Shown here: one piece after another, positions 20,139-24,115 of the stretch
Position numbering within the stretch: the first letter of the stretch is position 1
Layout of the letters: each line of letters begins with the position of its first letter
IMG/VR virus record: IMGVR_UViG_3300013131_000218
Coordinates: 1-26,236 of that record
From: a virus
Length of the DNA stretch: 26,236 nt
Strand: one strand, 5' to 3'
The notes under the pieces: model-generated
Databases searched by the model: none
What the model was told of the DNA's origin: nothing
Seen by the model: the letters and a program-made list of their open reading frames with translations, nothing else
Translations under genes and position numbers: made by a program

Positions 20139-22853
20139 ATGATTAAAACAGTAATTGCAATTTATCCGGGAAGATTTCAACCTTTTGGTCAACATCATGC
20201 AAAATCATTTAAATGGCTGCAACAAAATTTTGGAGCACAAAATACATACATTGCAACTTCAGATAAAGTAGAATTGCCTAAATCGCCATTTTCATTTTCA
20301 GAAAAGAAACAAATCATTGATGAATATGGATTAGGAGATTATGTAGTACAAACGAAAAATCCATACAAAGCAGAAGAAATTTTAGGTTCTATGGACCCAG
20401 CTACTACTGCAGTTGTATTTATGGTAGGTGCAAAAGACATGCAAAACGATCCTAGATTTGCTATGAAGCCAAAACGAGACGGGTCAGATTCCTACTTTCA
20501 ACCATACGATAAAAATAAAAGCAATTTGCAAGGGTTTGATAAACATGGATATTTAATTGTAGGGCCTCATGTATCGATTGCAATTCCAGGATATGGCGAA
20601 ATGTCAGGCACTGCCTTACGTAAAGCATTAGGAGCAAAAATTCCAAGATCTGAAAAAATTAAAATGTTCAAGGCAGTATTTGGTTGGTATGATGAATCTA
20701 CTGCTAACATGATTTTCAGTAAACTAGAACCAATATCAGAATCAAAATCTTCAATTGCGGAAATGTTTAAAAAAAGTAAATCTGCAACTACAACAAAACA
20801 TAAAGTAGAAGAGCAGATTTTTACTAAAGATTGGTGGAGTCAAATAATTGATTCAGTTATCAATGAACCAATTTCTGAAGGATATCCAAGTCAAAAGCAG
20901 ACAGATCAACATAACGCTAAAATTGAAAAACTTCGTAATTATCTTCGTAAACATATAGGAAAGGAATTTTCCTATTCATTTAATGAATTTCCAAAAACGG
21001 TTTATGGAGTTAAAATGCAAGAGTCTGTTATTTGCGAAATATGCAATAAACCGTTCAGACAAATAACAGAAAGACATTTAAAATATAAACACGACACAAC
21101 ACTTAACGAATATATCGATCAATATCCAACTGCAAAATTATTATCCGATTCTCTCAGAAAAGAATTGCGAGATAATAATCCAATGAAATACATTAAAAAT
21201 ATAAAAAAAATTGCTGAGACTAAACTAACTCGATACGGAGATAAAAATTATAATAATTACGAGCAAAGTAAAAAAACGAAGTTGGAGAAATATGGTAATG
21301 TGACATATAACAATCCAAAATTTGGAAGAGATAATTCATCGACCCGAAGCGATGTTCGTAAATTAATAAGTAAAGGTGTTACTGAATCATATGTAAAAAA
21401 TCCTGCTTTAAAAAATGAACGTTCTATAATAGGTAAGAATTTTGGCTTTGGAAACAAACAAGAATTCAAAAAGAAAATGATAGACAAAGGTTATTGGCTA
21501 TCAGAAGATGCAAAATCAGAGTTTTCATTGTATCGAAACTCTGTACGAAATATTACAGAAATAAATTATCATACATTTTTTAAGGAGATACCAAATGCAC
21601 ATTTACGTTCTAAAAAAATGCATTTAGACCATAAATACTCAATTTTTGAAGGATTTATGCATGATATTGACCCGGAAATTATAGGCCATTATAAAAATTT
21701 AGAAATAATGAGCCATTACATTAATGAATCAAAAAATATAAAATCTTCAATTTCATTATCCAAATTAGTTGAAGAAATACTTAATTCAAAAAATACCTTA
21801 GATATGGGGTATCAATTATTAATGTGCGGTGGGGCCGGGGGGCATATGGCCCACCCATTCAACATTGATTCAGTAAAAACAGGAAAAGATTTAATTGATA
21901 TCTTCAATAAATCAATTACATATTTGGAAAAAGGGCCCGCGGCAGTTAAAATTGACGGAGTTAACGCTTCAATTCGATTTGTTGAACTCAATGGTAAAAA
22001 ACAATTTGTCTTAGATCGAGGTTCAATGAAGCCGTTAGATGTACAAGGTATTACTAAAACAGATTTAGAATCGAGATTTGGTGAAGGACATGGTATGATT
22101 AAAATAGGCGGAACTGTATTAGATATATTCAATGCAGCGATTCCAAAAATTACATCGGCAATTAAATCATTAGGATTATGGGACAATCCTAATATTATGT
22201 TGAATATTGAATATGTAGCAGGCTCGACCAATGTATTACAGTATGATGAAAATTTTCTAGCAATACATGGTTTATTAGAACTGTATCAAGCAACTCCGAA
22301 ACGAAGAGCGACTAAAGAAATTTCATATAGCAAATCGGCGATGCAAGATTTACTAAATAATTTAGGTGAAACAGCAAAAAAATACAATTACAATGTGCTA
22401 GGATCAATTCCTACAACGCTTACATCTAAGCCGAATTTATCTACAGAGCTTAATCGTAAATACACTGTCACATTCAATGCAAGTACTAAAGAGACTAAGA
22501 CCTTGCTGCAGTGGTTAAACGACGCTAAAGTACCTGATACGACAATTAAAACGATAGACGGTAAAACAATATCTGCATTATCCAAAGAAGTTCTAATGAA
22601 AATTTCCGATGGTATTCCTTTAGATGAATTCATTGCCGATACAAAAGATTACAAAGACGCTGTCGATGGATTTGTAATTTATCTAGCTACTATGAAGTTA
22701 GGAGATGCAATATTAGATAAATTATCATCGCCACTGGGTCCAGTAAAAGATCATGAAGGTATTGTAATACGAGACAAACGAATTTACAACGAGCCGTTTA
22801 AAATTACTGGAAAATTTATTTTAGGTGGATTAGCCAGCAGTTTTAGAAAATGA
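20139..22853 (+). CDS. NMNAT-like nucleotidyltransferase / HNH endonuclease segment / polynucleotide-ligase-like protein
   Basis: One 904-residue frame with three parts. Residues 1 to about 200 are an HIGH-type nucleotidyltransferase of the NMNAT family: YPGRFQPFGQHH (9-20) and SGTALRK (156-162, the ISGTxxR site). The usual HxGH is changed to GQHH. Residues about 293-562 are a homing-endonuclease-like segment (separate entry). Residues about 563-904 are a nucleotidyltransferase of the ligase superfamily: KIDG (Lys604, motif I), DRGS (626-629), EGIVIRD (873-879, motif IV) and FKITGKF (887-893, motif V). The lead-in GGAGGHMAHPF (564-574) is a signature I associate with phage ligase-like proteins. 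A role in NAD or RNA-end metabolism is plausible. Whether the middle segment is removed or translated within the protein is unknown. It starts two bases after the fibre gene stop. Confidence 0.85.
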   Translation: MIKTVIAIYPGRFQPFGQHHAKSFKWLQQNFGAQNTYIATSDKVELPKSPFSFSEKKQIIDEYGLGDYVVQTKNPYKAEEILGSMDPATTAVVFMVGAKDMQNDPRFAMKPKRDGSDSYFQPYDKNKSNLQGFDKHGYLIVGPHVSIAIPGYGEMSGTALRKALGAKIPRSEKIKMFKAVFGWYDESTANMIFSKLEPISESKSSIAEMFKKSKSATTTKHKVEEQIFTKDWWSQIIDSVINEPISEGYPSQKQTDQHNAKIEKLRNYLRKHIGKEFSYSFNEFPKTVYGVKMQESVICEICNKPFRQITERHLKYKHDTTLNEYIDQYPTAKLLSDSLRKELRDNNPMKYIKNIKKIAETKLTRYGDKNYNNYEQSKKTKLEKYGNVTYNNPKFGRDNSSTRSDVRKLISKGVTESYVKNPALKNERSIIGKNFGFGNKQEFKKKMIDKGYWLSEDAKSEFSLYRNSVRNITEINYHTFFKEIPNAHLRSKKMHLDHKYSIFEGFMHDIDPEIIGHYKNLEIMSHYINESKNIKSSISLSKLVEEILNSKNTLDMGYQLLMCGGAGGHMAHPFNIDSVKTGKDLIDIFNKSITYLEKGPAAVKIDGVNASIRFVELNGKKQFVLDRGSMKPLDVQGITKTDLESRFGEGHGMIKIGGTVLDIFNAAIPKITSAIKSLGLWDNPNIMLNIEYVAGSTNVLQYDENFLAIHGLLELYQATPKRRATKEISYSKSAMQDLLNNLGETAKKYNYNVLGSIPTTLTSKPNLSTELNRKYTVTFNASTKETKTLLQWLNDAKVPDTTIKTIDGKTISALSKEVLMKISDGIPLDEFIADTKDYKDAVDGFVIYLATMKLGDAILDKLSSPLGPVKDHEGIVIRDKRIYNEPFKITGKFILGGLASSFRK
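20996..21055 (+). repeat. 10-bp inverted repeat spanning the 5' edge of the endonuclease segment
   Basis: AACGGTTTAT (20996-21005) is perfectly complementary to ATAAACCGTT (21046-21055), separated by 40 bases that include the putative junction near the ATG at 21015. The left arm lies in the host gene and the right arm in the inserted segment. Both are coding (KTVYG and NKPF). A repeat of this size could occur by chance in AT-rich DNA, so it is listed for its position. Confidence 0.35.
21015..21824 (+). mobile_element. In-frame HNH homing-endonuclease-like insertion
   Basis: About 270 codons (residues 293-562 of the host frame) carry features of phage homing endonucleases. They are a C2H2-type finger CEICNKPFRQITERHLKYKH (Cys299, Cys302, His313, His318), LNEYIDQYPTAKLLSDSLRK just after it, two related repeats TKLTRYGDKNYNN and TKLEKYGNVTYNN, and an HNH-like catalytic block 'HLDHKYSIFEGF' (Asp497, His498) with 'PEIIGHYKNLEIM' (Asn520). 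The segment begins at or near an in-frame ATG (21015) and runs without a stop into the ligase domain at the ATG/TGC at 21822-21827. Edges are approximate. I see no intein splice motifs (no terminal His-Asn) and no group I intron core that I can recognise. It may be a tolerated protein insertion, an unrecognised intron, or a fused free-standing endonuclease. Confidence 0.75.
21828..21855 (+). other. GC-rich run and strong hairpin at the 3' edge of the insertion
   Basis: GGTGGGGCC (21828-21836) pairs with GGCCCACC (21848-21855) with one bulged G, around a loop that includes six Gs (21837-21842). The stretch encodes the GGAGGHMAHP signature but uses GGG, GCC, CAC and GGG codons that are scarce in the AT-rich surroundings. 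It lies directly downstream of the endonuclease segment. Confidence 0.55.
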
Positions 22854-22872: not shown

Positions 22873-23466
22873 ATGGCAAAATTACAAAACATCAAAGCAA
22901 TTCGTCAAATGCTAGACGGTACGCATAGAACGCAAACTCGTACGTCAGTAAGCTTTGCACAACCTACATCTAAAACTCGCGAAGTCGGAGAAGTTTGGAC
23001 AGACGCTAATGGAAATGAATGGGAACAGCGAGAAGGATATAAAATACAAAAAGGAAAGTTAGACGAGATTCGTTCTTTACTAGCAAAAAATCAAATGCCA
23101 GCCCATTGCCCGAAATGCAGCAAACAAATGAACAAAAAATTAGATAGAAAATTTTGGTTGTATGAAAAGCATTGTTTCGATTGTCAAGTTGCATTTGAAC
23201 ATACTTTACGAATTGAAGGCAAGTATGCAGATTATGAAAAAGATCGTATGAGAAGAAATGCAGAATCTTGGTTAAAAGACGCAGAGCAAGAAGCTATGGA
23301 ATTAGTCGAAGCATTTCGAAATCCATTGTCTTTTGCTAATGCAGACGGTACAATTGAAAAATGGACCGGAGGACAAGATCCAGAAGAAATTGCACAAAAA
23401 ATAGAAGAAGAGTTTCGTAATTTCAAAGAAAATTTCTTACTTAAATTAACTACAGAAAATGATTAA
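22873..23466 (+). CDS. Conserved phage protein with a zinc ribbon
   Basis: This 197-residue protein opens MAKLQNIKAIRQMLDGTHRT and contains VGEVWTDANGNEWEQREGY (about 38-56), a Cys4 site (Cys79-x2-Cys82, CPKC; Cys101-x2-Cys104, CFDC), RIEGKYADYEKDRMRRNAES and a Glu-rich helical C-terminus. I recognise the overall pattern as a conserved hypothetical protein of T4-like marine phages; no function is assigned in that family to my knowledge. The four cysteines most likely bind zinc. Its stop overlaps the next start by eight bases, linking it with the putative capsid-targeted proteins. Roles in DNA or RNA binding are possible but not shown. Confidence 0.7.
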   Translation: MAKLQNIKAIRQMLDGTHRTQTRTSVSFAQPTSKTREVGEVWTDANGNEWEQREGYKIQKGKLDEIRSLLAKNQMPAHCPKCSKQMNKKLDRKFWLYEKHCFDCQVAFEHTLRIEGKYADYEKDRMRRNAESWLKDAEQEAMELVEAFRNPLSFANADGTIEKWTGGQDPEEIAQKIEEEFRNFKENFLLKLTTEND

Positions 23467-24115
23467 ATTAAAAGATTTGCTAAAAGAAGCTGAAGAAGCT
23501 AAACAGCCTGTTTCAGTTAAAGATGAAGTTGTTAAATTTTTCAATTCCAATAAAAAGAAATTGGAAAAATTAATGGACGATGAAGAATGGGACGATTTCT
23601 ATGAAATGGCGTTTGAAAAATTTCCAGATTACGATCAGGATGATGTGGCACAGGCAATGAACAAAGCAGCTTTACACGCCGGATATTTTGAAAATGAAGA
23701 CGTGCCTGAAATGCCAACAGAAAAAGAATTAGAAACTATGACATTCGGAGAAAAGTCTCAGCAAAAGGGCATTTCAATGAGCGACTACGACAAAAAACAA
23801 AAAATGCCCAAGACTTCGTCTACTGAGCTTTATATGGAATCTAAAAAAAAAGATCTAGAACCAATTGAAGAAGCTGAATATAGAGGTCGCAAAGTAAAGT
23901 TAGGCAAACCTTTTTATACTCCTGGAGGTCCTAGAAAGCGTGCAGTGTATGTAAGAAATGCCAAAGGTAATGTTGTTAAAGTAGGCTTTGGTGAGCCAGG
24001 AATGAAAATTAAAAAGAACAACCCAGAAAGGAGAAAATCATTCCGAGCTCGACATAACTGCGATAATCCAGGACCAAGATGGAAAGCTCGCTACTGGTCT
24101 TGCAGATTTTGGTAA
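23459..24115 (+). CDS. Putative prohead-processed virion protein with conserved basic C-terminal domain
   Basis: This 218-residue protein starts MIKLKDLLKEAEEAKQ, a short amphipathic peptide ending in L-K-E before Ala. That is the form of T4 capsid-targeting peptides cut by prohead protease gp21 (L/I-x-E). A second such site, PIEEAE near residues 139-144, precedes the C-terminal domain (about 145-218): YRGRKVKLGKPFYTPGGPRK, 'VKVGFGEP', RKSFRARHNCDNPGPRWKAR and YWSCRFW. I recognise that domain as common in phages and some large viruses, with unknown function. Its Arg/Lys/Trp/Cys content suggests nucleic-acid contact. Residues 20-125 are acidic and helical. Processing and packaging are inference. 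It overlaps the gene at 22873 by eight bases. Confidence 0.65.
   Translation: MIKLKDLLKEAEEAKQPVSVKDEVVKFFNSNKKKLEKLMDDEEWDDFYEMAFEKFPDYDQDDVAQAMNKAALHAGYFENEDVPEMPTEKELETMTFGEKSQQKGISMSDYDKKQKMPKTSSTELYMESKKKDLEPIEEAEYRGRKVKLGKPFYTPGGPRKRAVYVRNAKGNVVKVGFGEPGMKIKKNNPERRKSFRARHNCDNPGPRWKARYWSCRFW

Follow-up and report, generated by a model that had tools for sequence, protein, structure and literature searches.

An HNH homing-endonuclease gene seated in frame, apparently without a splicing partner, between the NMNAT-like and RNA-ligase-like modules of a phage protein

In a 26,236-nucleotide stretch of viral DNA (IMG/VR record IMGVR_UViG_3300013131_000218, positions 1 to 26,236; hereafter the window), a single open reading frame (ORF) of 904 amino acids (positions 20139..22853; all window features described here lie on the plus strand) encodes an NMNAT-like domain, a linker, an HNH homing endonuclease in frame with its surroundings and an RNA-ligase-like domain, as judged from the translation and from profile and fold searches. 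Comparison of alleles establishes that the homing-endonuclease gene (HEG) is an optional, mobile, in-frame HNH gene under selection, located at a module boundary where it re-supplies the start of the ligase. From these comparisons, we consider it probable that the element has no splicing partner and is translated in one chain with the protein that it interrupts. It is usually held that a homing endonuclease can spare the gene it occupies only from within an intron or intein, or from an intergenic position.

The edges of the insert were fixed by alignment with L064 (IMG/VR contig 3300004369_000290; related viral loci are denoted by L numbers), which carries the same gene without the insert in 641 codons and is 97-98% identical to the window in nucleotide sequence beside the junction. 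A second such empty (HEG-minus) allele is L065; alleles with the insert are referred to as HEG-plus. The window is collinear with L064 up to a GAG codon (E295, position 21023) and again from GG (G564, position 21828), and 263 codons (21024..21812; 789 nucleotides net) are missing from the empty allele. Thus, the junction reads KMQE-QLLKE-GGAGGHM in L064 and KMQE-(263 codons)-QLLMC-GGAGGHM in the window. The codons for QLLMC (21813..21827) are unlike the native ones and were brought in by the element, replacing the native QLLKE at the ligase start with a Glu-to-Cys change that abolishes the tripeptide L/I-x-E. An earlier examination of the letters alone, without database searches (the sequence-only reading), had described a 904-codon frame open at both edges with an insert at residues about 293-562; the translation of 20139-22853 indeed contains no stop, and the proposed limits are right to within a few residues. 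The C2H2 finger, paired TKLxxYG..xYNN repeats and HNH block named there, as well as the NMNAT-like and ligase-like flanks, were all located in the translation.

Near the start of the insert lies a Ros/MucR-like C2H2 zinc finger (21033..21092; C299, C302, H313 and H318, in invariant columns), which matches Pfam PF05443 with an E-value of 5e-4, below the cut-off of that family, and Ros in the PDB (2jsp) with an E-value of 0.004. It is followed by two TKLxxYG..xYNN repeats (21219..21317), of which L025, a related locus, has one copy, and by the nuclease block HLDHKYS...GF...H.xN...N..K (21618..21734). The metal-binding motif residues HLDHKYS, N, N and K, which place the block among HNH nucleases, are unchanged across 17 inserts at two sites.

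The NMNAT/cytidylyltransferase-like domain upstream (20139..20700) contains GxFxPxHxGH-like and ISGTxxR-like motifs (GRFQPFGQHH and MSGTALRK). Its profile matches are weak in the window (phrog_395 cytidyltransferase, E-value 1.4e-4, and a weak hit to Pfam CTP_transf_like) and clear in the sister locus L070 (CTP_transf_like, E-value 8e-9). The RNA-ligase-like nucleotidyltransferase domain (21828..22850), which starts with GGAGGHMAHPF, is supported by 63 related viral loci and by motif conservation, and carries the signatures of covalent nucleotidyltransferases in the expected order, namely KxDG (KIDG, 21948-21959), Glu, EG and the Lys of KxTG, with K40, D42, G43, E125, E371, G372 and K383 invariant. 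RNA ligases were the top matches of the full chain in a fold search, non-significantly, as none reached an E-value of 0.001, and a PDB profile search with the ligase yielded no match. Among phage records, the gene was found in only three, the HEG-free Microcystis phage Mel-JY01 and two unannotated uncultured records. Across 95 distinct HEG-free alleles, the linkers upstream of the ligase junction are unrelated to one another and range in length from none to hundreds of residues. Four loci (L051 and L053-L055) carry an extra module between NMNAT and ligase, in which YLSNSNIQGQGAFAQENYPEGTVI, by a look at the sequence alone, resembles a SET domain.

An in-frame insert, 63% identical to that of the window, is present at the same point in L025, which differs in its upstream linker and has empty relatives of its own (L022-L024). 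More divergent in-frame inserts were found in about 11 further distinct alleles, so that about 13 distinct alleles, drawn from many metagenomes, share this layout, a recurrence that rules out misassembly or a chance ORF. A HEG profile built from five inserts, with the clade delimited at >145 bits, recovered L068, L069, L070, L071/L072, L073, L075, L076, L077, L078, L079, L080, L082, L084 and L085. Every clade member found is in frame within a gene of the NMNAT...ligase family and always at a module boundary; in L068, L072, L075, L080 and L084, the contig piece begins inside the gene and the NMNAT part is outside view. The search also returned about 60 more distant HEGs, which are free-standing ORFs terminating no more than about 15 residues from the HNH block, and a profile scan of genome contigs returned only one distant relative. 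In L093 and L125, several HNH endonuclease-like ORFs stand in a row on one short contig.

The clade also occupies a second in-frame site (site B), located 5' of NMNAT in L082 and L085. Whereas the sole HEG of L085 is found there, L082 carries two HEGs in a single ORF composed of ParB-like, HEG, NMNAT, HEG and ligase parts. The two site-B copies group as sisters in the HEG tree and branch with the site-A (pre-ligase) copy of L082 itself, which suggests that the HEG has moved between sites A and B. In the site-B endonucleases (L082 3834-4433 and L085 4761-5312), a CxxC...CxxC finger takes the place of the C2H2 finger, and these endonucleases connect a ParB-like module with NMNAT. The proposal, made from the letters alone, that an endonuclease had bridged two genes does not hold at the pre-ligase site, where HEG-free alleles are already fused, and is possible at the pre-NMNAT site of L082 and L085.

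The element is present in one and absent from the other of alleles about 97% identical to each other (window/L064, L025/L022 and L076/L226); in the L226/L076 pair, a block of about 264 codons replaces one GAG (Glu) codon. HEG-plus alleles are rare in samples collected through the ligase (1 of 79 in one and 1 of 63, namely L025, in the other), again marking the element as optional. Furthermore, L068 and L069 share a block of about 840 bp with the HEG that is about 99% identical, ends sharply at TTGCGGTGGGGCT and is flanked by sequence only 82-93% identical, which shows a recent transfer of the HEG. The HEG tree and the ligase tree disagree on L073 and L077, which group as sisters only in the former, a further sign of spread between divergent alleles. 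The ratio of nonsynonymous to synonymous substitution rates (dN/dS), relied on for moderately divergent rather than saturated pairs, is 0.13 for the HEGs of L076/L078, 0.18 for L071/L079 and 0.11 for L073/L077, values that indicate that the HEGs are under purifying selection.

The main insertion point adjoins a conserved motif. Of the 95 distinct HEG-minus alleles, 91 have Glu immediately before GGAxGHM and 93 have Leu or Ile at the third position before it, the intervening residue being variable, and the cultured Microcystis phage Mel-JY01 reads IIAE/GGLGGHM. The T4 prohead protease gp21 cleaves after L/I-x-E (PMC9026906), and in sequence the conserved (L/I)-x-E/GG is the T4 prohead-protease consensus. 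On the ligase side of the HEG-plus alleles, LLxC-GG is found in 12 of 13 distinct alleles, with Glu kept in L080, and an upstream L/I-x-E lies at most 17 residues from the finger in 11 of 14 HEG-plus records. Four HEG-free loci (L018-L021) have an element-like tail, TLDMEHQLLVC, before GG (TLDMEHQLLVCGG; the junction reads SKPTDTLDMEHQLLVCGG). This tail is probably the remnant of an in-frame loss of the HEG; alternatively, the element may have originated in exons of this type.

A degenerate or new type of intein, excising itself at the protein level, would also be in frame at both edges, and both the Cys conserved at the right junction in 12 of the 13 distinct alleles and the true inteins found elsewhere in this gene family speak for it. 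Nevertheless, we regard it as very improbable. Pfam and NCBIfam intein models found no Hint/intein domain in the window protein or in L025, although the same models do detect true inteins in the sister loci L069, L070 and L084. As the sequence-only reading had noted, the ends of an intein are not visible: the insert has neither a Cys/Ser start with block A nor a terminal His-Asn, its edges reading ...QE/SVICEIC and ...YQLLMC/GG, and its first residue is Ser in the window by happenstance and Phe, Gly or others in relatives. Moreover, the approximately 250 residues are wholly taken up by the endonuclease. The right-edge Cys was ruled out as a splicing residue because L080 retains Glu and no Hint domain is present. 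For L082, a weak Pfam intein match (19 bits versus a cut-off of 36) was unmatched by the NCBIfam models. The Cys-type inteins of L069, L070, L075 and L084 are located at E-K/C...HN/TDGQ, the KxDG active site of the ligase, in genes that also carry the in-frame endonuclease; the intein of L069 is itself interrupted, and the gap holds a separate nuclease-like ORF.

Several findings weigh against an in-frame HEG without a splicing partner, at least in the form favoured here. No significant PDB match was obtained with the endonuclease model, so that the HNH motif and the relatives of the element are the basis for assigning nuclease activity. L080 has Glu on both sides of the insert, the upstream L/I-x-E is lost in L076 and L078, and the window has M-Q-E at that place. 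Codon-level selection alone would be compatible with removal of a translated intron from the RNA, and the folding of the window insert is more stable than that of its shuffles (z -2.3 to -3.0).

The last two points bear on an unrecognised self-splicing intron that is filled by an open frame, the mature mRNA encoding a 641-amino-acid protein. Group I introns often bear endonuclease genes, a perfect 11-bp hairpin (TCTGTTATTTG / CAAATAACAGA, 21024..21070) begins at the first base of the window insert, and joining after the left Glu would yield x-x-E-GG in many alleles. However, the other inserts are not unusually structured (z -0.1 to -1.6) and the hairpin is not conserved in L025. Covariance searches with Rfam 15 covering the window and 14 HEG-plus loci gave no match at the gathering score, and relaxing the E-value brought only chance-level matches. 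Coding sequence spans the whole insert from the finger to the end of the HNH block and continues across both edges, so that a core would have no space, and L076 lacks the GAG codon, so that excision could not rebuild the empty sequence. An intron of this kind is thus highly improbable. In T4, the free-standing HEGs mobE and segF have terminators within their 5' coding ends, and a regulatory role of the window hairpin is therefore conceivable.

Synonymous conservation at the 3' edge, which looked like constraint on the RNA, is confined to one pair. The last approximately 70 bp of the insert are 96-98% identical in nucleotide sequence between window 21750-21821 and L025 4929-5000, synonymous sites included, with an abrupt drop at the exon. 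An RNA element at this edge was ruled out because other allele pairs lack such nucleotide conservation; for the same reason, recombination between the two lineages is the probable source of the near-identical ends. Of the options raised by the sequence-only reading, an atypical splicing element finds no support, given that the Rfam and intein models match nothing in the window insert, where neither a group I core nor any standard intron or intein was detected, that coding fills the insert and that the 3'-end conservation is missing in other pairs. A protein that tolerates its passenger, the first of those options, is best supported, by the empty alleles, the in-frame edges, the purifying selection, the seat at a module boundary and the re-supplied ligase start.

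The fusion could also be merely apparent if the endonuclease or the ligase were made separately from internal starts. In the window, GGAG and ATG with a 5-nt spacing (21006..21017) form a possible start just 5' of the insert, and an ATG codon precedes the ligase Cys. Neither is conserved among HEG-plus alleles, for which reason internal translation starts were rejected. Most of these alleles lack a start codon in the 12 codons 5' of the finger, the codon before the ligase Cys encodes Met only in the window and L025 and Val, Leu, Thr, Gln or Lys elsewhere, and no allele has a stop between the parts. Separate production is, accordingly, very unlikely. Splitting of the gene, as in nrdA of Aeromonas phage Aeh1, does not apply either, the frame being open across both edges in every HEG-plus allele.

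Another possibility, which would extend the favoured explanation and is compatible with it, is that the prohead protease processes the chain as a polyprotein, with the endonuclease released or carried into the capsid, with or without the ligase, and then injected. The presence of (L/I)-x-E/GG in nearly all HEG-free alleles and in Mel-JY01 agrees with it, and stand-alone ligases begin with MIRLKKLLNEVLLKE-GG or directly with M-GGAAGHM (L056), starts that fit a mature N-terminus at GG. Of 460 non-redundant N-termini from neighbouring genes in related loci, 15.4% have the pattern (L/I)xE(A/G/S) in their first 20 residues, compared with 1.5-4.3% in intervals from residue 20 to 120 and 7.2% at 120-140, an N-terminal enrichment of about five-fold. 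Of 12 large relative records, 11 contain an S77 protease gene, about 8-10 kb from the ligase gene, as do several HEG-plus records; the window record, at only 26 kb, is too short to show one. The genes for terminase, portal and protease lie downstream of the ligase gene. The motif, the protease gene and the gene location favour processing and packaging, without proof. Against them stand the shortness of the motif, the lack of a leader on the window NMNAT and the loss of the ligase-side Glu in most HEG-plus alleles. We therefore treat the processed polyprotein as a tentative possibility, short of even probability.

In L056-L058, L164, L167, L173, L178 and L211, the ligase is a separate gene that either has a leader of about 15-20 residues ending in LLKE or starts exactly with M-GGAAGHM. 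Leaders similar to MIKLKDLLKEA and resembling T4 capsid-targeting sequences are found on neighbouring genes in many related loci and in the window, where the downstream gene at 23459..24115 starts with MIKLKDLLKEAEE. Several of the neighbouring genes with such leaders may encode internal head proteins.

Under the explanation that we favour, of a mobile HEG without a splicing partner, the endonuclease would cut empty alleles within or next to the conserved codons that specify (L/I)-x-E-G-G-A-x-G-H-M, and repair of the break would copy the element in. The insert would be tolerated because it is seated in the highly variable inter-module linker and because its last codons recreate the start of the ligase (LLxC-GG in place of LLxE-GG); the purifying selection seen on the endonuclease and the ligase parts alike points to such tolerance. 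A HEG-plus allele, without the original Glu codon beside GG, would probably be protected from self-cutting. Because the same Glu matches the T4-type consensus, its loss would also remove the prohead-protease cut on the ligase side in most HEG-plus alleles, with the upstream L/I-x-E often kept. The endonuclease would thereby become the N-terminal part of the mature ligase after head-protease processing and may enter the virion.

Phage HEGs within enzyme genes that lack an intron or intein are known from mobE in nrdA of Aeromonas phage Aeh1, mobA in T4 gene 60 and seg43 in gene 43 of phage 25, and host function is kept despite the HEG at least for nrdA and gene 43 (PMC2988022). The family described here resembles the Aeh1 nrdA/mobE type in this respect; however, that type splits the coding region into two polypeptides, whereas the present inserts are in frame at both edges with no stop between the parts. 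In Ophiostoma mitochondria, according to Gibb and Hausner (2005) as cited in PMC7902536, a LAGLIDADG endonuclease is fused in frame to rps3, likewise an in-frame fusion of HEG and host protein without an intein. As cited there, it concerns an organelle and an rps3 that itself lies within a group I intron; the elements described here are HNH genes in phages, situated between modules at two sites. Intein-borne homing endonucleases are also in-frame mobile inserts in conserved enzymes, but they have a Hint domain and splicing residues, and the window insert has neither. The HNH region is about 36-38% identical to that of XLZ16237.1 of Citrobacter phage Ursula, a free-standing HNH gene of T4-like phages located between tail sheath and tail tube; such genes are independent and lie between genes, whereas the HEGs of the window type lie between the domains of one gene. 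In Campsomeris, an insert between cox2a and cox2b is in frame with both halves of the enzyme gene and differs in being a 3-kb ORF cluster; rapid amplification of cDNA ends revealed separate transcripts (PMC5374615), so that being in frame does not prove a single protein. Full-text searches of an open-access collection brought up, in the listed titles and abstracts, no report of an in-frame phage HEG without splicing.

Thus, a whole clade of homing endonucleases appears to reside in frame in a phage enzyme without intron or intein, at no fewer than two module boundaries and, in one protein, as two copies. A more far-reaching scenario, which we consider doubtful, is that the HEG is adapted to protease-cut module boundaries of a virion polyprotein and is packaged as the ligase's N-terminal portion, or else released by the prohead protease as in L080, and that it is injected along with the DNA. 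If this were true, the homing endonuclease would act on co-infecting phages from the moment of entry, and its way of persisting within a gene would be a third strategy beside the intron and the intein. The NMNAT/RNA-ligase protein of large phages, widespread and little described, is hereby flagged as a possible virion protein and as a hot spot for mobile elements, and the neutrality of a selfish gene within a coding sequence becomes directly testable.

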